A stretch of 64,000 nucleotides of DNA, from assembly GCF_030815955.1 (NCBI RefSeq), contig NZ_JAUSXK010000001.1, forward strand, positions 1,054,001-1,118,000. The letters run 5' to 3'. Origin of the DNA: Microbacterium murale. Lineage in GTDB: Bacteria; Actinomycetota; Actinomycetes; Actinomycetales; Microbacteriaceae. This document shows, in pieces, positions 12,891 to 22,387 of the stretch (the stretch's first letter is position 1; every line of letters starts with the position of its first letter). Below the pieces are notes generated by a model, which worked only from the letters and a program-made list of their open reading frames with translations, searched no databases and was not told the DNA's origin. The position numbers and the translations under genes were made by a program.

Positions 12891-14579
12891 TCAGCGGGCC
12901 GACACGTTCCCGAACAGCTTCGCGATCGGGGCCAGCACCATCGGACGTGCGGCGATCCACGCGGCTGCGATCACGACGAGTGATGCCACCAGGAACCAGA
13001 AGCCGGTCCAGTTGTCCGCGTAGGCGTTCGGGTCGGTCGAGCCCTGAACCGCATACATGTGGTTGAGGTTCCGCAGAGCACCCGTCGCGAACACGAGGAA
13101 CACATGGATCGCGATGAACACCACGAAGTACAGCATCACCGGGAAGTGCACGGCGCGCGCCCACTCGACCGGATACGCCTTGTTGAGCCTGGTCGCATTC
13201 TTCGGCCAGATGCCGCTCATGCGCACACCGGTGACGGCGGCGAGAGGGGCGGCGATGAAGATCGTCGCGCCGTAGGCGAGCTGCTGCAGGGAGTTGTAGT
13301 TCACCCACCCGTTCTCGGTCGGCCAGTCCAGCGACACGTACTGCAGCGCAGCTGACAGCGCGTTCGGGAAGACCTCCCAGCTGGTGGGGATCACCCGCAT
13401 CCACTGACCGGTCACGAACAGCAGCACGACGAACACGATGCCGTTCACCAGCCACAGGATGTCGAGCGACTGATGGAACCAAAGTGTCAGGCTGATCTTG
13501 CTCTTCGCGTTGCCGCGCGCGGTCCAGAACGCGGTCGGGCGTTTGTCGTGGCGCACGCTGAGGCCCGAACGGATGATCAGCACCATCAGGAACACGTTGA
13601 AGAAGTGCTGCCAGCCCAGCCACCCCGGGAAGCCCACCGGCGCCCCCTCGGGCAAGTGGTACTCACCGGGGTAGGTCTGCAGGAAGTCCTGCATACCCGA
13701 CAGACTCAGCAGCCAGCGCACGAACAGCACAGCCATCGCCGCCGCACCGAGCAGACCGGCACCGCCCACGATCACGACGCCTGCCCACTGCCCCTTGGTG
13801 AAGGGACCCATGCGCGCCGGCTCCGTGGCGGCTGCGGGGCGAGTGAACGCGTTCTTGCCGGGGAACACGGTGCGCTGGAACGGCAACGGAGTGCTGACAT
13901 CGACCGTCTCGACGGCGGTGGATGCCGGGATATCGGATGCCTCGATGAGATCGGCCGGTGCTTCGACATCTTCCTCGACTGCGACCGTCACGGCGGCGGG
14001 CGCAGCCATGCCGGCATGAGGCCAGGGATCGCCGCCGGCCGTGCGAGGCAGGCCACGGCGGAGGGCTTCGCCGATACCGGATGCAGGCGCGGGAGCCGAG
14101 GTTTCGACTCGCTCCGTCCGCGGGACTCTCTTCCTCTCGGTCGCTTCGCCCTCTCCCGGGGCGACCCGAGTCGGAGCGGAGGCTGCGGTGGGAGCTGAGG
14201 CCGCAGGGGCAGCGGCTGTCGCAGGCGCGACGGCGACAGCCTGGGCGGCACCAGCGGGAGGCCACGGCTCCCCGCCCGGTGTTCGCGGAAGACCACGGCG
14301 CATGCCCTGCGGGTCGTTGAGCGAAGGCGGCGCAGCCGCCGCAGACGAAACGGGGTGAGCGACCGCCAGGGAGTCGAAGCCCTCCCCAGCAGCAGGGGCA
14401 GATGCTTCGGCGACCGGAGCGGTTTCTTCGACTCGCTCCGCTCGCTCATCGGCCCCTGATGGGGCAGCGGCCGCCGCGACTTTCACCGCGGCATCCGCCA
14501 CCTCGACGTCACCGGCCGGAGGCCACGGCTCTCCACCGATGACCCTTGGCAGTCCCTGTCGCAGTTTCTGCGCAGCCAT
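12891..14579 (-). CDS. Cytochrome b561-like membrane protein with triple GLPR motif, etf-linked
   Basis: The 562-residue protein has a disordered Ala/Pro-rich N-terminal half (1-260) and a C-terminal six-helix domain (helices near 266-290, 320-338, 368-392, 433-452, 478-500, 527-546). The histidines H325 (GWQHFF), H369 (WFHQS), H478 (RAVHFP) and H492 (AIHVF) fit bis-histidine heme b ligation, as in the formate dehydrogenase gamma / Ni,Fe-hydrogenase b-type family. The motif LRxGLPRxxGG(E/D)PWPxAG occurs three times, at 6-23, 93-110 and 173-190. The gene follows etfA by 6 nt, so it is the third gene of the ETF operon. I infer that it takes electrons from ETF to the menaquinone pool. Confidence 0.85.
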   Translation of the reverse strand: MAAQKLRQGLPRVIGGEPWPPAGDVEVADAAVKVAAAAAPSGADERAERVEETAPVAEASAPAAGEGFDSLAVAHPVSSAAAAPPSLNDPQGMRRGLPRTPGGEPWPPAGAAQAVAVAPATAAAPAASAPTAASAPTRVAPGEGEATERKRVPRTERVETSAPAPASGIGEALRRGLPRTAGGDPWPHAGMAAPAAVTVAVEEDVEAPADLIEASDIPASTAVETVDVSTPLPFQRTVFPGKNAFTRPAAATEPARMGPFTKGQWAGVVIVGGAGLLGAAAMAVLFVRWLLSLSGMQDFLQTYPGEYHLPEGAPVGFPGWLGWQHFFNVFLMVLIIRSGLSVRHDKRPTAFWTARGNAKSKISLTLWFHQSLDILWLVNGIVFVVLLFVTGQWMRVIPTSWEVFPNALSAALQYVSLDWPTENGWVNYNSLQQLAYGATIFIAAPLAAVTGVRMSGIWPKNATRLNKAYPVEWARAVHFPVMLYFVVFIAIHVFLVFATGALRNLNHMYAVQGSTDPNAYADNWTGFWFLVASLVVIAAAWIAARPMVLAPIAKLFGNVSAR

Positions 14580-14585
14580 CCGTCG

Positions 14586-15560
14586 CTACTTCTTCCGCGC
14601 TTCGAGCGCCTCGACCACCTGCGGCACGATCTTGAACAGGTCACCGACGATGCCGAAGTCGGCGACGTCGAAGATCGGCGCCTCGCCGTCCTTGTTGATC
14701 GCGACTATCGTCTTGGCTGTCTGCATACCGGCGCGATGCTGAATGGCACCGGAGATGCCGACCGCGACATACAGCTGCGGCGACACCGAGACACCGGTCT
14801 GCCCGACCTGGTGCGCGTACGGGATGTAGCCAGCGTCCACCGCCGCGCGCGACGCGCCGATCGCGGCGCCCAGCGCATCGGCGAGCTGCTCGACGAGCAC
14901 GAACTGCTCCTTCGAGCCGAGACCTCGGCCGCCAGAGACGACCTTCGACGCACCCCGCAGCTCGGGTCGAGACGACTCCGCCTCGACCATCTCAGTCGCA
15001 CCCGCCTTCGCGGCGGCCGCGCCGGATGCCGTCACTTCCAACGGCTCGACAACCGGTGATGCGACGGCTTCGGCGCGAGCGTCCACTGCACCCTGGCGCA
15101 CAGTGATGATCGACGCTCCGTAGGTCGGCGCGGAATCGACGAGGAACGCTCCGCCGTACACGGAGTGGTGCGCGACGATGCCCTCGTCGTCACGGGAGAC
15201 GCCGACAGCATCCACCGAAAGGGCGAGCTTCTCTCGCACCGCGAGACGACCGGCGACATCACGACCGGCGATCGAGTTCGAGATCAGCACGGCGTCAGGC
15301 TGCACGCGCTGGTACGCCGCCTGCAGTGCGTCCACCAGTGGCACGGTGAGAGAGTCGACATCGACGCCAGAGGTCAGAACGACCGACGCGCCGGCGGCAG
15401 CAGCAGCATCCACGGCTTTCGGTGATCCGCCGGGCACCAGGGCAACCGGAGATCCGATCGTCGATGCGGCACCGATGAGCGCAGCAGTCGAACTGGCGGC
15501 GTCACCGGCGGGTGTCACATCCACGAGGACGAGGATCGAGTTGTCGGGGTAGCTCATCAT
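14586..15560 (-). CDS. etfA: Electron transfer flavoprotein alpha subunit
   Basis: The 324-residue protein carries the FAD-binding C-terminal domain with the family signature VDAGYIPYAHQVGQTGVSVS, followed by LYVAVGISGAIQHRAGM and AINKD (about residues 240-295). It forms a heterodimer with EtfB and accepts electrons from acyl-CoA dehydrogenases, such as the one encoded at 19688-20839. Three start codons occur in a row; I chose the ATG at 15560, which shares a base with the etfB stop codon (TGATG). Length is normal for bacterial EtfA. Confidence 0.93.
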   Translation of the reverse strand: MMSYPDNSILVLVDVTPAGDAASSTAALIGAASTIGSPVALVPGGSPKAVDAAAAAGASVVLTSGVDVDSLTVPLVDALQAAYQRVQPDAVLISNSIAGRDVAGRLAVREKLALSVDAVGVSRDDEGIVAHHSVYGGAFLVDSAPTYGASIITVRQGAVDARAEAVASPVVEPLEVTASGAAAAKAGATEMVEAESSRPELRGASKVVSGGRGLGSKEQFVLVEQLADALGAAIGASRAAVDAGYIPYAHQVGQTGVSVSPQLYVAVGISGAIQHRAGMQTAKTIVAINKDGEAPIFDVADFGIVGDLFKIVPQVVEALEARKK

Positions 15561-16336
15561 CACACCAACCTGTTCTGCACGAGGTATTCGACCAGCTTCG
15601 TGCCGGCGTCGCCCTCATCGGTGATCTTCACGCCTGCCGCACGCGGGGGCTTCTCGGAGACCGAGGTCATGATCGTCCGCGGTGCTGCCGCAGGATCGGC
15701 CGAGATGCCGAGGTCGTCGAGGGAGAGCACTTCGAGCGGCTTCTTCTTCGCCGCCATGATGCCCTTGAAGTTCGGGAAGCGCGCATCGGGCAATGCTTCG
15801 GTGATCGAGATCACCGCCGGGAAGGGTGCCGAGACCGCCTGCGAGCCGTCGTCGGCGGCGCGAGTGCCGGCGACGCCTTCTGCGGTGATCTCTACGGCGT
15901 TGAGGGCGGTCGCCTGCGCGTAGCCGAGATGCTCGGCGAGCATCGCGGGGATGACGCCGCCGGAGCCGTCGGTGGAGAGGTTTCCAGTGATGACGAGGTC
16001 CGGCTCTGCACGGCGGATGGCGGCGGCGAGAACTTCGGCGGTCAATCCCAGATCAGCACCGACGAGCTGCTCGTCGACGATGTGCACAGCGGATGCCGCT
16101 CCGATCGCGAGCGCACGGCGAATGGACGCTGTCGAAGACTCGGGAGCCATCGCCAGAGCGACGACCTCGGTGCCATCGTTCTTGTCGGCGAACGAAAGGG
16201 CGACTTCGAGCGCCCGCTCGGTGATCTCATCGAGAACCACGTCACCGGCCGCACGATCAGCCAATCCTGTCTCCAGATTCAGCTTGCGATCGCCATAGGT
16301 GTCCGGTACCTCTTTGACCAAGACGAAGATCTTCAT
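15560..16336 (-). CDS. etfB: Electron transfer flavoprotein beta subunit
   Basis: The 258-residue protein opens with MKIFVLVKEVPDTYGDRKLN and has the EtfB adenine-nucleotide fold with the ITGNLSTDGSGGVIPAMLAE region (about 115-134) and the family signature around KGIMAAKKKPLEV (192-204). It is the first gene of the etfB-etfA-cytochrome b operon. The ribosome site is GAGGAG. A -10-like TAGACT lies about 30 bases upstream. The gene is divergent from a MarR regulator, which is the likely controller. Confidence 0.93.
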   Translation of the reverse strand: MKIFVLVKEVPDTYGDRKLNLETGLADRAAGDVVLDEITERALEVALSFADKNDGTEVVALAMAPESSTASIRRALAIGAASAVHIVDEQLVGADLGLTAEVLAAAIRRAEPDLVITGNLSTDGSGGVIPAMLAEHLGYAQATALNAVEITAEGVAGTRAADDGSQAVSAPFPAVISITEALPDARFPNFKGIMAAKKKPLEVLSLDDLGISADPAAAPRTIMTSVSEKPPRAAGVKITDEGDAGTKLVEYLVQNRLV

Positions 16337-17989: not shown

Positions 17990-18766
17990 CTACTGATTGA
18001 TGAAGTTGGGTGACCGCTTCTCGCGGAAGGCCGCCATGCCCTCCTTCTGGTCGACCGTGTCGAAGAGCGCCGCGAACGCCTGCTTCTCGTGCGCCAGCCC
18101 CTCGGCCAGCGGCGTCTCCATCGCGGCATCCAGGGCGGCCTTCGCGGCATAGAGCGAAGGGAGGCTCTTCGACGCGATCGTCTCAGCCAACGTCGTGGCC
18201 TCGGTGATCAGATCGGATGCCGGCACCACCCGTGACACGAGGCCAGCGCGCTCAGCTTCCTCTGCGCCCATTATGCGACCGGAGAGGATGATCTCGGCCG
18301 CCTTGTAATAGCCGACGGCACGGATGAGTCGCTGCGTTCCGCCCATCCCCGGAATCACTCCGAGGTTGATCTCGGGCTGGCCGAACTTCGCCGTATCAGC
18401 CGCGAGGATGATGTCGCACATCATCGCCAGCTCGCAGCCACCACCGAGCGCGAAGCCGCTGACCGCTGCGATGACGGGGGTGCGCACCGCAGCGAAATCG
18501 CTCCACGACCCGAAGTGGTCGGTCGCGCGCATCTCTGCGGCCGACATCGACTCCATCTCCTTGATGTCTGCACCGGCAGCGAAAGCCTTCTCCGACCCGG
18601 TGACGACGATCGCACCGACGCTCTCATCCGTGTCGAATGCGACGGCTGCTGCAGTGACCTCCTGCGCGAGCTGCGAGTTCAGCGCGTTGAGCGCCTGCGG
18701 GCGGTTCAGCGTGATCCACCCCACGCGTCCGCGTTGTTCGACAAGGATCGTCTCGTACTCGGTCAT
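17990..18766 (-). CDS. Enoyl-CoA hydratase
   Basis: The 258-residue crotonase-family protein has both catalytic glutamates, E112 in [11 protein letters not shown] and E132 in [12 protein letters not shown], and the oxyanion-hole segments [11 protein letters not shown] and SGFALGG. It would hydrate methacrylyl-CoA to 3-hydroxyisobutyryl-CoA in the valine pathway or act on other short enoyl-CoAs. It is the last gene of a four-gene run (mmsA, acyl-CoA dehydrogenase, mmsB, this gene). A 40-bp gap containing GTTTCGAAAC separates it from mmsB. A 3-hydroxyisobutyryl-CoA hydrolase is not in the window. Confidence 0.9.
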
Positions 18767-18806: not shown

Positions 18807-19691
18807 TCACACCTGTCCGTCGCGGATGTCGGTGATGATGCCGGAGAAGTCCCGCCCACCACCTGAGCCGGCCGCGAACGCTGCGTAGATCTCCTGCGCG
18901 AGCCGCCCCATCCTGGCATCCGTGGATGTCTGATCGATCGCCTGCAGCGCGAGCCCGAGGTCCTTGGCCATCAGCGCGCCGGCGAAGCCCGGCTGATAGT
19001 CACGGTTCGCCGGACTCGTCGGAACCGGCCCCGGCACCGGACAATTCGTCGTCAGCGCCCAGCACTGACCTGAGGCGTTCGCGGCCACGTCGTAGAGCGC
19101 ATCATGCGAGAGCCCGAGACGCTCGCCGAGCACGAACGCCTCCCCCACCACGATCTGCGAGACCGCGAGGATCATGTTGTTGCACACCTTCGCGGCCTGT
19201 CCGAGCCCCGGTCCGCCGCAGTGCACGATGCGCTTGCCCATCGCCTCTAGCAGCGGGAGCGCGGCCGCGAAGTCGTCGTCGGATGCTCCGACCATGAACG
19301 CGAGTGTCGCGTTCTCCGCTCCGACCACTCCGCCGGAAACGGGTGCATCGATGTTGCGATGTCCGGCCGCGATCGCCATCGCGTGCGCAGCCTGCGCCTC
19401 GTCGACTGCGATCGTGGACGACTCGATGAACAGCGTTCCCGGTCGCGCCGCGGCCAGCAGTCCGCCCTCGTACGCCTCGATGACGTGCTTGCCCGCCGGG
19501 AACATCGTGATCACGACATCCGCGTCGGTCGCGGCATCCGTCCCCGACTCAGCAAGCGGCACGCCGACTGCCACCGCCGCTTCCCGCGCAGCCGGCATGA
19601 CGTCGAAGCCGATCACGTCGTGGCCCGCGGCCTGCAGGTTGCGGGCCATCGGCAGGCCCATGTGTCCGAGTCCCAGGAACGCGATCTTCAT
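18807..19691 (-). CDS. mmsB: 3-hydroxyisobutyrate dehydrogenase
   Basis: The 294-residue beta-hydroxyacid dehydrogenase oxidises 3-hydroxyisobutyrate to methylmalonate semialdehyde with NAD+. The N-terminal nucleotide motif FLGLGHMGLPMARNL (5-19), the substrate loop DAPVSGGVVGAENATLAFMVG (115-135) and the catalytic lysine K168 in GQAAKVCNNMI are all present. It overlaps the acyl-CoA dehydrogenase stop codon by 4 bp (ATGA). Its position between acyl-CoA and semialdehyde dehydrogenases supports the valine-specific name over tartronate-semialdehyde reductase. Confidence 0.92.
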   Translation of the reverse strand: MKIAFLGLGHMGLPMARNLQAAGHDVIGFDVMPAAREAAVAVGVPLAESGTDAATDADVVITMFPAGKHVIEAYEGGLLAAARPGTLFIESSTIAVDEAQAAHAMAIAAGHRNIDAPVSGGVVGAENATLAFMVGASDDDFAAALPLLEAMGKRIVHCGGPGLGQAAKVCNNMILAVSQIVVGEAFVLGERLGLSHDALYDVAANASGQCWALTTNCPVPGPVPTSPANRDYQPGFAGALMAKDLGLALQAIDQTSTDARMGRLAQEIYAAFAAGSGGGRDFSGIITDIRDGQV

Positions 19692-20839
19692 GACGCCGCC
19701 TTCAGCGCGTCGCGTCCGACGATCATGCGCATGATCTCGTTCGTCCCTTCCAGGATCTGGTGCACGCGCAGATCTCGCACGACCTTCTCGATCCCGTAGT
19801 CCTGAAGGTACCCGTAGCCGCCGTGCAGCTGAAGGGCATCATTGGCGACGCGGAATCCGGCATCCGTCGCGAAACGCTTGGCCATCGCGCACCGCACGGT
19901 CGCATCATCCGCATGCTCGTCGACCGCGCGGGCGCCATCCTGCACGAGCAACCGCGCCGCGTGCAACTCGGTCTCCATGTCGGCGATCGCGAACACGATG
20001 CTCTGCTTCTCGGCGAGCGCCTCGCCGAATGTGAACCGTTCGTGCACGTAGCGTCGTGCCTGATCCAGCGCCCAGCGCGCACCGCCGATCGAACATGCCG
20101 CGATGTTGAGCCGACCGCCGTTGAGCGCCGACATCGCGATCGCGAACCCCTGCCCTTCGGTGCCGAGCAGAGCGGATGCCGGCACCCGCACCTCATCGAG
20201 GATCACCTGCCGTGTCGGCTGGGCGTGCCAACCCATCTTCTTCTCCGGCGCTCCGAACGACAGGCCGACGGCATCCCCTGGTACGAGGAAGGCCGAGATC
20301 CCTCTGGCGCCCGCCTCGCCGGTGCGCGACATGACCACATACACCGCGGCCTCGCCTGCCCCGGAGATGAACTGTTTGACTCCGGTCAGCACGTATTCGT
20401 CGCCATCGCGGATCGCGCTCGTGGTGATGGCTGCGGCATCGGACCCTGCCCCTGGCTCCGTCAGGCAGTACGCACCGAACCCGGTCATGCTCGTGAGCTG
20501 CGGCAGCCATTCGCCACGCTGCGCTGCCGAGCCGTAGGTGTCGAGCATCCACACCACCATGTTGTGGATGGAGATGTACGCGGCAACGGCAGGATCGCCC
20601 TTCGCAAGCTCCTCGAAGATCGCGACCGTGTCCAGACGCGATAGCCCGGTGCCGCCGAACTCCTCGTCGACGTAGATGCCGCCGAGACCGAGGTCTCCAG
20701 CGCGCTGCAGCGCCTCGGTCGGGAAGATGTGATGCTCGTCGCGCTCGGCAGCGAACGGCTCGAGTTCGGTCTCGGTGAACTCGCGGACCGCGTGCAGGAT
20801 CGCTGCACGCTCCTCGGTGGTTGTGGTGATCATCGTCAT
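19688..20839 (-). CDS. Acyl-CoA dehydrogenase, probably isobutyryl-CoA specific
   Basis: The 383-residue flavoenzyme has the family segments FGAYCLTEPGAGSDAAAITT (FAD/substrate loop, about 121-140), KKMGWHAQPTRQV, the DGARAVDEHADDATVRCAMAK helix region and the C-terminal HGGYGYLQDYGIEKVVRDLR followed by QILEGTNEI, where the EGTN glutamate is the usual catalytic base of this subfamily. It would desaturate isobutyryl-CoA to methacrylyl-CoA and pass electrons to the ETF encoded at 14586-16336. The first of two nearby ATGs is used, with GAGGAT upstream. Confidence 0.9.
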   Translation of the reverse strand: MTMITTTTEERAAILHAVREFTETELEPFAAERDEHHIFPTEALQRAGDLGLGGIYVDEEFGGTGLSRLDTVAIFEELAKGDPAVAAYISIHNMVVWMLDTYGSAAQRGEWLPQLTSMTGFGAYCLTEPGAGSDAAAITTSAIRDGDEYVLTGVKQFISGAGEAAVYVVMSRTGEAGARGISAFLVPGDAVGLSFGAPEKKMGWHAQPTRQVILDEVRVPASALLGTEGQGFAIAMSALNGGRLNIAACSIGGARWALDQARRYVHERFTFGEALAEKQSIVFAIADMETELHAARLLVQDGARAVDEHADDATVRCAMAKRFATDAGFRVANDALQLHGGYGYLQDYGIEKVVRDLRVHQILEGTNEIMRMIVGRDALKAAS

Positions 20840-20884: not shown

Positions 20885-22387
20885 TCAGCGCATGGTCGGG
20901 ATGACGAAGCTCGCACCGTCGCGCACGCCATGCGCGGGCCAGCGGCTCGTCACCGTCTTGGTCTTCGTGTAGAAACGGAAAGCGTCGGCACCGTGCTGAT
21001 TGAGGTCGCCGAAGCCGCTGCGCTTCCAGCCGCCGAACGTGAAGTAGGCGATCGGAACGGGGATCGGCACGTTGACGCCGACCATGCCGACGTTCACCCG
21101 AGCGGTGAAATCCCGGGCGGCGTCTCCGTCGCGAGTGAAGATCGCGACGCCGTTGCCGAACTCGTGATCGGATGCCATCGCCAGAGCCTCTTCGTAGTCC
21201 GCTGCGCGAGCGATCACGAGCACAGGGCCGAAGATCTCCTCGCGGTAGATCGACATGTCTGTCGTCACGTGGTCGAACAGGGTCGGACCGAGATAGAAGC
21301 CCTCCTCATGACCGGGGACGGTGATCCCGCGACCGTCGGCGAGCAGCGTCGCCCCGGCATCGATGCCCTGTTGGATGTAGTCCTCCACGCGTTCCACGGC
21401 TGACCGTGCGACGAGCGGCCCGTAGTCGACGTCCTCGGCGAGGGCTGGTCCGACGCGCAACTGACCGACCCGTTCCGTGAGTTTCGCGGCGAGCGCGTCG
21501 GCCGTCTCATCGCCGACCGGCACTGCGACAGAGATCGCCATGCAGCGCTCCCCGGCGGAACCGTAACCAGAGCCGATCAGCGCATCCGCGACCTGATCGA
21601 GATCAGCATCCGGCATGACGACCATGTGGTTCTTCGCTCCGCCGAAGCACTGCGCGCGCTTGCCGTGCGCAGTCGCGGTCGAGTAGATGTACTCGGCGAT
21701 CGGAGTCGATCCGACGAATCCGACGGCCTGGATGCGCGGGTCGGTGAGCAGGGTGTCCACGGCCTCCTTGTCGCCGTGGACGACATTGAAGATTCCGGCG
21801 GGCAGGCCCGCTTCGAGGAACAGCTCCGCGAGGCGCACCGGCACCGAGGGGTCGCGCTCGCTGGGCTTGAGCACGAAGGCGTTGCCGGCGGCGATCGCGG
21901 GCCCTGCCTTCCACAGCGGAATCATGGCCGGGAAGTTGAACGGCGTGATGGCTGCGACCACACCGAGCGGCTGACGCATCGAATAGACGTCGATACCGGT
22001 GCCTGCTTCGGTGGAGTACTCCCCCTTGAGCAGGTGCGGCGCGCCGGCGGAGAACTCGATCACCTCGAGGCCTCGCTGGATATCGCCCTTGGCGTCGTCG
22101 AACGTCTTGCCGTGCTCGCTGGAGAGCAGCGTCGCAAGCTCGGTCATGTTCTTCTGAACGAGATCGAGGAAGCGCAGCAGCACTCGCGCTCTCTTCTGCG
22201 GGTTGGTCGCCGCCCAAGCCGGTTGCGCGGCCTCAGCGTCATCGATCACGCGGCGCACTTCGCTGGCCGATGCGAGCGGCACGCTGGCCTGCACACGGCC
22301 GACGCTTGGATCATAAACGTCGCCGAAGCGTCCGTCTTTCGGAGTCAGAAGCGTTCCGCCTACGAAATGGGGAATGATGCGAGTCAT
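20885..22387 (-). CDS. mmsA: CoA-acylating methylmalonate-semialdehyde dehydrogenase
   Basis: The 500-residue aldehyde dehydrogenase carries the nucleophile C282 in AGERCMAISVAVPVG and the diagnostic GGAKNHMVVMPDAD segment (249-262), in which asparagine replaces the glutamate general base of hydrolytic ALDHs, as is known for CoA-acylating MMSDH. TPFNFPAMIPLWK (148-160) is the cofactor region. The product is propionyl-CoA, which the prp operon at 54.5-58.8 kb could consume. It is the first gene of the valine operon. A -10-like TAATCT lies about 40 bp upstream. Confidence 0.93.
   Translation of the reverse strand: MTRIIPHFVGGTLLTPKDGRFGDVYDPSVGRVQASVPLASASEVRRVIDDAEAAQPAWAATNPQKRARVLLRFLDLVQKNMTELATLLSSEHGKTFDDAKGDIQRGLEVIEFSAGAPHLLKGEYSTEAGTGIDVYSMRQPLGVVAAITPFNFPAMIPLWKAGPAIAAGNAFVLKPSERDPSVPVRLAELFLEAGLPAGIFNVVHGDKEAVDTLLTDPRIQAVGFVGSTPIAEYIYSTATAHGKRAQCFGGAKNHMVVMPDADLDQVADALIGSGYGSAGERCMAISVAVPVGDETADALAAKLTERVGQLRVGPALAEDVDYGPLVARSAVERVEDYIQQGIDAGATLLADGRGITVPGHEEGFYLGPTLFDHVTTDMSIYREEIFGPVLVIARAADYEEALAMASDHEFGNGVAIFTRDGDAARDFTARVNVGMVGVNVPIPVPIAYFTFGGWKRSGFGDLNQHGADAFRFYTKTKTVTSRWPAHGVRDGASFVIPTMR

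Follow-up and report, generated by a model that had tools for sequence, protein, structure and literature searches.

A predicted diheme cytochrome b encoded behind etfBA as a candidate membrane exit for electrons of the electron transfer flavoprotein in Microbacteriaceae

Electrons from the breakdown of fatty acids and valine reach respiration by way of the electron transfer flavoprotein (ETF), and their entry into the membrane has been described for ETF:quinone oxidoreductase (ETF-QO) and for the EtfD family. How does this step proceed in Microbacterium murale, where a 64,000-nucleotide stretch of the genome (contig NZ_JAUSXK010000001.1, positions 1,054,001 to 1,118,000; hereafter, the window) carries an etfB-etfA pair followed by a gene for a b-type cytochrome? 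We consider it probable that ETF electrons enter the membrane through this cytochrome here, as well as in ETF-bearing Microbacteriaceae and several related families, where it would replace EtfD and ETF-QO, because the operon is conserved, ETF-QO is absent, and EtfD is excluded. From genomic linkage, exclusion, and context, we conclude that the cytochrome would represent a third type of ETF dehydrogenase, unrelated by homology to the two known ones.

An earlier sequence-only reading of the window had described an etfB-etfA-cytochrome operon, and all three genes were confirmed on the minus strand (Table 1), together with the 4-nt overlap of etfA and etfB and the 6-nt gap that separates the TAG stop codon of etfA from the ATG of the cytochrome gene, which is in the same frame as etfA. 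The cytochrome matches PF01292 (prokaryotic cytochrome b561 / Ni-hydrogenase cytochrome b) with 32.7 bits, above the curated cut-off of 30.1, and the same family is matched by 11 of 11 aligned members, the window protein included (E 0.001 or better). In a Pfam search of the cytochrome at E 0.001, PF01292 was the sole family, with no flavin adenine dinucleotide (FAD)-binding domain, PF05187, CCG, or 4Fe-4S domain. The sequence-only reading had recognized six helices and at least two pairs of histidines, which correspond to six long predicted helices (residues 262-291, 318-344, 364-390, 430-454, 471-498, and 525-543) and four invariant histidines; overlooked was an N-terminal arm of ~260 residues with three conserved repeats. 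The nearby valine operon with its acyl-CoA dehydrogenase was also borne out, with methylmalonate-semialdehyde dehydrogenase (MMSDH) and 3-hydroxyisobutyrate dehydrogenase (HIBADH) both scoring above their NCBIfam cut-offs.

The window genome consists of one contig of 4,111,363 bases and encodes exactly two ETF-domain proteins, both in the window, that is, one ETF pair. The earlier observation that neither ETF-QO nor EtfD is present in the window could be extended to the whole genome: neither Fer4_ETF_QO (PF05187) nor the CCG domain (PF02754) was found anywhere in the 4.11 Mb and, since a genome devoid of the CCG domain is therefore devoid of EtfD, domain searches revealed no canonical ETF-QO or EtfD gene elsewhere in it. 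The searches for ETF, PF05187, and CCG were positive in 10, 3, and 12 of 14 control genomes, respectively. Across Microbacteriaceae, PF05187 was absent from 150 of 150 genomes (this search was confined to the family), and CCG domains were detected in 27 of the 150, including 10 of the 41 genomes with ETF (12 proteins). These 12 proteins were considered as possible EtfDs and rejected. Nine of them, taken through Pfam, comprise eight FAD-linked oxidases and one iron-sulfur/CCG protein (genome G301), which has no membrane helix by hydropathy; the remaining three, to which Pfam was not applied, are two proteins resembling FAD-linked oxidases by motif only (G411 and G422) and one with an in-frame stop (G418). 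When searched with an EtfD query, the G301 protein scored 114 bits and the other CCG proteins at most 34, as compared to >800 for true EtfDs.

A survey of 218 genomes of the order, in which searches for EtfD and the cytochrome were run at E 1e-20 (ETF was searched for in only some of them) and cytochromes with E <1e-80 were classified as close, points in the same direction. EtfD is encoded in 63 genomes and the close cytochrome in 47, and the two never co-occur, against a chance expectation of 13.6; in nine further genomes, the only cytochrome match is distant (E 1e-25 to 1e-32), and six of these also encode EtfD. The division is apparent at several taxonomic levels: genus g11 splits into 10 cytochrome genomes and 5 EtfD genomes, and families f8 (3 cytochrome, 3 EtfD) and f47 (2 and 8, respectively) divide by genus. 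The anti-correlation between the cytochrome and the known exits that the sequence-only reading had suggested looking for is thus seen for the ETF-QO domain within the family and for EtfD within the order.

The linkage between ETF and the cytochrome is widespread in the family. The cytochrome query matches 73 of the 150 Microbacteriaceae genomes, and ETF is above the cut-off in 41. The linkage analysis disregarded two sub-threshold ETF matches (G354 and G377) and, where a molybdopterin-type match was split, its second piece (15 in all). These 41 genomes hold 53 ETF loci, in 50 of which (39 genomes) the cytochrome gene is located directly downstream on the same strand, as had been predicted; in G333, one of the loci lacking an adjoining cytochrome, the contig ends right after etfA. 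A relative of the cytochrome is present in 41 of 41 ETF genomes versus 32 of the 109 that lack ETF (Fisher p 4e-17, uncorrected for kinship). Where a genome has more than one ETF pair (two or three, in eight genomes), a cytochrome follows 19 of the 20 pairs. Among the linked loci that were fetched (47 of 50, the window's own and two of the three from G301 being left out), the start of the cytochrome gene overlaps the etfA stop codon by 4 nt in 15. In addition, etfA lies upstream of the cytochrome in 73 of 80 named loci, which originate from Microbacterium, Agromyces, Arthrobacter, Pseudarthrobacter, Glutamicibacter, Georgenia, and unclassified bins, and of the seven exceptions, five are truncated by the end of a contig.

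Some loci show peculiar arrangements. In genus g180 (L084 and L106), a gene resembling those for alpha/beta-hydrolases (named from sequence) is inserted between etfA and the cytochrome gene, and both loci hold a match to acyl-CoA dehydrogenase. On contig 1 of G301 (2.835-2.844 Mb), two etfBA-cytochrome operons with equal match scores face each other, as if freshly duplicated and inverted, and a third copy is located ~40 kb from this pair.

Four histidines of the membrane domain (H325, H369, H478, and H492) are the proposed heme ligands (Table 1). The window cytochrome contains no cysteine, and neither do 71 of 81 aligned proteins; the combination of four invariant histidines with the lack of cysteine therefore suggests that the protein binds hemes but no iron-sulfur cluster, with H325 and H492 being the putative ligands of an outer heme and H369 and H478 those of an inner heme. 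A sequence search for solved relatives of the cytochrome yielded nothing useful, the best match being an alternative complex III subunit with an E value of 0.31, and Foldseek with the full-length model gave no match at E 0.001 or better; a further look ranked FdnI first. In the predicted model, the core resembles two known cytochromes, FdnI (the cytochrome b subunit of formate dehydrogenase-N) and HyaC (from hydrogenase-1), and an extra helix apparently turns the FdnI-like core over in the membrane.

These features can be assembled into a putative route. Acyl-CoA dehydrogenases, here the one of the valine operon, would reduce cytoplasmic ETF, which would be caught by the repeats of the N-terminal arm, and the FAD of ETF would hand single electrons directly to the inner b heme (H369/H478). 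From there, electrons would cross to the second, outer heme (H325/H492), and menaquinone would be reduced close to the outer face; menaquinone would take protons from outside, so that the energetically uphill transfer between acyl-CoA and menaquinone would be driven at the expense of the proton motive force (Δp). The heme assignment, quinone reduction, ETF docking, and the direction across the membrane are all what we infer from these features; the flipped, Δp-consuming inside-to-outside course is a reasonable possibility to which we assign somewhat less than an even chance. If true, a flavin-to-heme route without iron-sulfur clusters would be a new design for ETF oxidation and, if the core is really flipped, the family would provide a natural experiment in which the influence of membrane orientation on quinone-enzyme energetics could be studied.

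The N-terminal arm, in which 159 residues have a predicted local distance difference test score (pLDDT) below 50, the low segments all falling between residues 1 and 223, contains three copies of the motif RxGLPRxxGGxPWP. No motif copy was obtained in 100,000 shuffles. The repeats are conserved to the same degree as the membrane core: mean identity to the window residues among 81 sequences is 0.73-0.81 in the repeats and 0.77 in the membrane domain, versus 0.19 in the linkers between repeats, and R174, G176, and R179 of repeat 3 are invariant in 81 of 81. At least one copy is present in 102 of 133 loci with etfA and the cytochrome, a set in which some genomes are present twice; 71 of the 102 have three copies and 7 have four. 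The motif is found again in families f1, f2, f6, f8, and f50. Many of the linked cytochromes without repeats are short (~310 residues) and overlap etfA.

What these repeats bind is finely balanced. We give roughly equal weight to the proposal that they catch ETF and to its denial, and consider it plausible, if not favored, that their target is instead acyl-CoA dehydrogenases, a partner copy of the cytochrome, or the protein's own cytoplasmic face. In a model of the cytochrome alone, block 181-190, within repeat 3, has a mean pLDDT of 71 versus ~36-47 for the linkers; the third repeat already stands out there, and docking on the protein's own cytoplasmic face is thus possible. The EtfA-cytochrome co-fold, made by reading through the etfA stop codon and limited to these two proteins, etfB being in another frame, did not raise the confidence of the repeats: the third one has a pLDDT of 57, as compared to 71 for the best block of the cytochrome alone, with the FAD domain of EtfA poorly modelled (pLDDT 28-50). 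As a test of ETF capture, the co-fold was uninformative. The lack of repeats in 31 of the 133 loci weighs against the proposed route. Conversely, all repeat-bearing cytochromes in the family tree that have enough flanking sequence are ETF-linked; in L243, one of the named loci, the repeats are present and only an etfB fragment lies beside the gene. Between repeat-bearing and repeat-free systems, 8 EtfA and 7 EtfB alignment columns differ, which is only a lead, kinship not having been removed from the comparison. Among these columns, with the same caveat of kinship, are EtfB residues 181 and 182 (window positions 15791-15796), which we take to be at the start of the ETF recognition loop. A precedent for capture is provided by mycobacterial EtfD, which, according to PMC13083937, has a disordered tail with conserved repeats, and the published AlphaFold3 model has ETF touching the tail region. 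Whether disordered arms can capture ETF through short motifs is not settled by the 2026 paper on the EtfD structure and could be tested directly with the repeats described here.

Mycobacterial EtfD (Rv0338c / MSMEG_0690; homologues FadF and DgcB) passes electrons from ETF to menaquinone, the task that we propose for the window protein. EtfD is described as having a b heme in the membrane and a disordered region with repeats, where ETF may make contact (PMC13083937), and pull-downs of Mycobacterium tuberculosis EtfD contain EtfB (PMC8593149). The window protein differs from EtfD in having six helices, four histidines, no cysteine, and an arm at the N terminus, and whereas the EtfD relative L168 shows CCG and 4Fe-4S domains, the window protein has neither. 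None of the searches that were run gave homology between the window cytochrome, with its membrane helices and histidines, and EtfD. EtfD tails elsewhere carry repeats of their own, with many copies of NAAPSWE in L158, several of GGSLFD in L167, and six or seven of DPWDEPA in the ~500-residue tails of L316 and L317, and many tails are without repeats; lineage-specific repeats on EtfD tails thus seem to recur. ETF-QO (ETFDH), which hands electrons from ETF to quinone, contains both FAD and the 4Fe-4S domain PF05187; the window protein has neither of the two. The sulfite-oxidase-like, molybdopterin-fused cytochrome b of actinobacteria has the same four histidines as the window protein but, unlike the latter, includes a catalytic domain and is devoid of repeats; adjacency to ETF was unseen in the short stretches examined. 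Among the matches listed in the open-licence literature, judged by titles and abstract openings, there was no ETF-linked cytochrome of this type. It is conceivable, although we hold it only tentatively, that the family is an independently evolved third ETF dehydrogenase in the form of a bare diheme FdnI-like cytochrome, flipped by an added helix and driven by Δp, the arm of which captures ETF by means of as many as four motif copies, with unrelated EtfD tails evolving their own repeats for the same job.

The provenance of the cytochrome was addressed with a quick tree of 108 rows (three rows skipped as broken or short), rooted on 11 molybdopterin-fused proteins; the molybdopterin domain was matched in 11 of 11, with Pfam run on one. 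The clade of the window protein includes 51 rows (Shimodaira-Hasegawa-like approximate likelihood ratio test (SH-aLRT) support of 88), 46 of which are ETF-linked, one undecided, and four unlinked. Six rows (L192, L198, L199, L203, L204, and L206) were first scored as unlinked owing to the short stretch available; five proved to be linked and L192 is the undecided one. This clade holds every repeat-bearing row except L099, which branches outside. Another group of 43 rows (support 80) consists of a 15-row subclade and a 28-row subclade, the latter mixing linked and unlinked rows. The cytochrome likely shed a catalytic domain and was subsequently recruited by ETF, although the tree leaves the order of events unproven.

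Several findings weigh against the cytochrome being the ETF exit. The 15-row subclade is never ETF-linked, and a relative from G353, a genome without ETF, falls inside the window clade; more broadly, 32 of the 150 family genomes have a relative but no ETF, some of them only the distant molybdopterin-fused kind. The ETF locus of G313 lacks an adjoining cytochrome, with a relative on another contig, and the third ETF copy of G359 is unlinked, the other two copies of that genome being linked. Outside Microbacteriaceae, where surroundings were read in 27 of 31 close-cytochrome genomes, etfA is upstream in 14, ETF is ~7 kb off in 3, and none is present in the stretch in 10. The exclusion is weaker at the genus level (of 77 genera, 12 have the cytochrome and 30 EtfD, with one shared; p 0.023), and G248 has ETF without the cytochrome or EtfD (ETF-QO was not sought there). 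These findings notwithstanding, the operon survey and the exclusion with EtfD lend support to the initial suggestion that the cytochrome is a candidate ETF:menaquinone reductase, with the electron route itself still a proposal. In 41 of the 150 sampled Microbacteriaceae genomes, ETF is accompanied, as far as tested, by neither known exit, and for these the cytochrome provides a named, testable candidate.

Some of the same findings could be accommodated if the cytochrome were the heme subunit of a different redox enzyme in the cytoplasm (a molybdenum oxidoreductase, for instance), encoded behind etfA for shared regulation only, with ETF reoxidized in some unrecognized way, such as by an NAD-linked or soluble route. 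The nearest outgroup, fused to a molybdopterin domain throughout, and the unlinked relatives in genomes without ETF are consistent with such an arrangement. However, the molybdopterin domain was unmatched in the 47 linked and 80 named loci (a few kb each; other enzyme classes were not searched), and the neighbors of the unlinked rows include no recurring redox partner gene. The adjacency in nearly all ETF loci, the cytochromes accompanying separate ETF copies, and the mutual exclusion of the close cytochrome and EtfD further argue against this explanation, which we consider improbable.

Members of the family also occur in other settings. Never-linked cytochromes of some Microbacteriaceae (L129-L133) are encoded close to genes for elongation factors (EF-G and EF-Tu, named from sequence). 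In G619, also from genus g180 (L299), the cytochrome gene directly follows that of an enoyl-CoA hydratase, with no ETF gene in the 12 kb stretch. In L020-L030, a cytochrome b of the family carries a sulfite-oxidase-like molybdopterin domain as a C-terminal fusion.

Table 1 Features of the etfBA-cytochrome locus and of neighboring genes in the window
Feature	Positions in the window	Strand	Evidence
etfB (ETF beta subunit), 258 aa	16336-15560	-	PF01012, 98.7 bits
etfA (ETF alpha subunit), 325 aa	15563-14586	-	PF00766, 115.1 bits; PF01012, 57 bits
Proposed ETF:menaquinone reductase (diheme cytochrome b), 562 aa	14579-12891	-	PF01292
N-terminal arm, residues 1-261, predicted to be cytoplasmic and largely disordered	13797-14579	-	pLDDT; positive-inside count
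Repeat 1, residues 7-23	14511-14561	-	mean identity 0.73 (81 sequences)
Repeat 2, residues 94-110	14250-14300	-	mean identity 0.81 (81 sequences)
Repeat 3, residues 174-190	14010-14060	-	mean identity 0.74 (81 sequences)
Six-helix membrane domain, residues 262-562	12894-13796	-	AlphaFold2 pLDDT mostly 80-96; FdnI-like core
H325, proposed outer-heme ligand	13605-13607	-	invariant in 108/108 rows
H369, proposed inner-heme ligand	13473-13475	-	invariant in 108/108 rows
H478, proposed inner-heme ligand	13146-13148	-	invariant in 108/108 rows
H492, proposed outer-heme ligand	13104-13106	-	invariant in 108/108 rows
Enoyl-CoA hydratase, valine operon	17990-18766	-	PF00378, 255.1 bits
HIBADH	18807-19691	-	TIGR01692, 353.3 bits (cut-off 291.6)
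Acyl-CoA dehydrogenase, valine operon (separate operon from etfBA)	19688-20839	-	PF02771, PF02770, PF00441
MMSDH	20885-22387	-	TIGR01722, 629.5 bits (cut-off 448.5)
PutA-like bifunctional proline dehydrogenase / glutamate semialdehyde dehydrogenase, 1225 residues	4598-8275	-	below NCBIfam cut-offs

The likely source of electrons is the acyl-CoA dehydrogenase of the valine operon, located a few kb upstream of etfBA, where its gene lies between those for MMSDH and HIBADH; the enzyme is matched in 26 of the 47 fetched linked loci (28-69% identity). That the cytochrome works in reverse, taking electrons from menaquinol and reducing ETF for an acyl-CoA-forming reaction, is very improbable given this catabolic setting, the recurrence of the dehydrogenase in linked loci, and hosts which we take to be aerobic, although sequence cannot tell direction and the best NCBIfam matches are to acryloyl-CoA reductase subunits, far below the cut-offs (168.6 of 600 bits for EtfA and 365 of 640 for the dehydrogenase). 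Elsewhere in the window, the PutA-like protein is another possible donor of electrons to the membrane.

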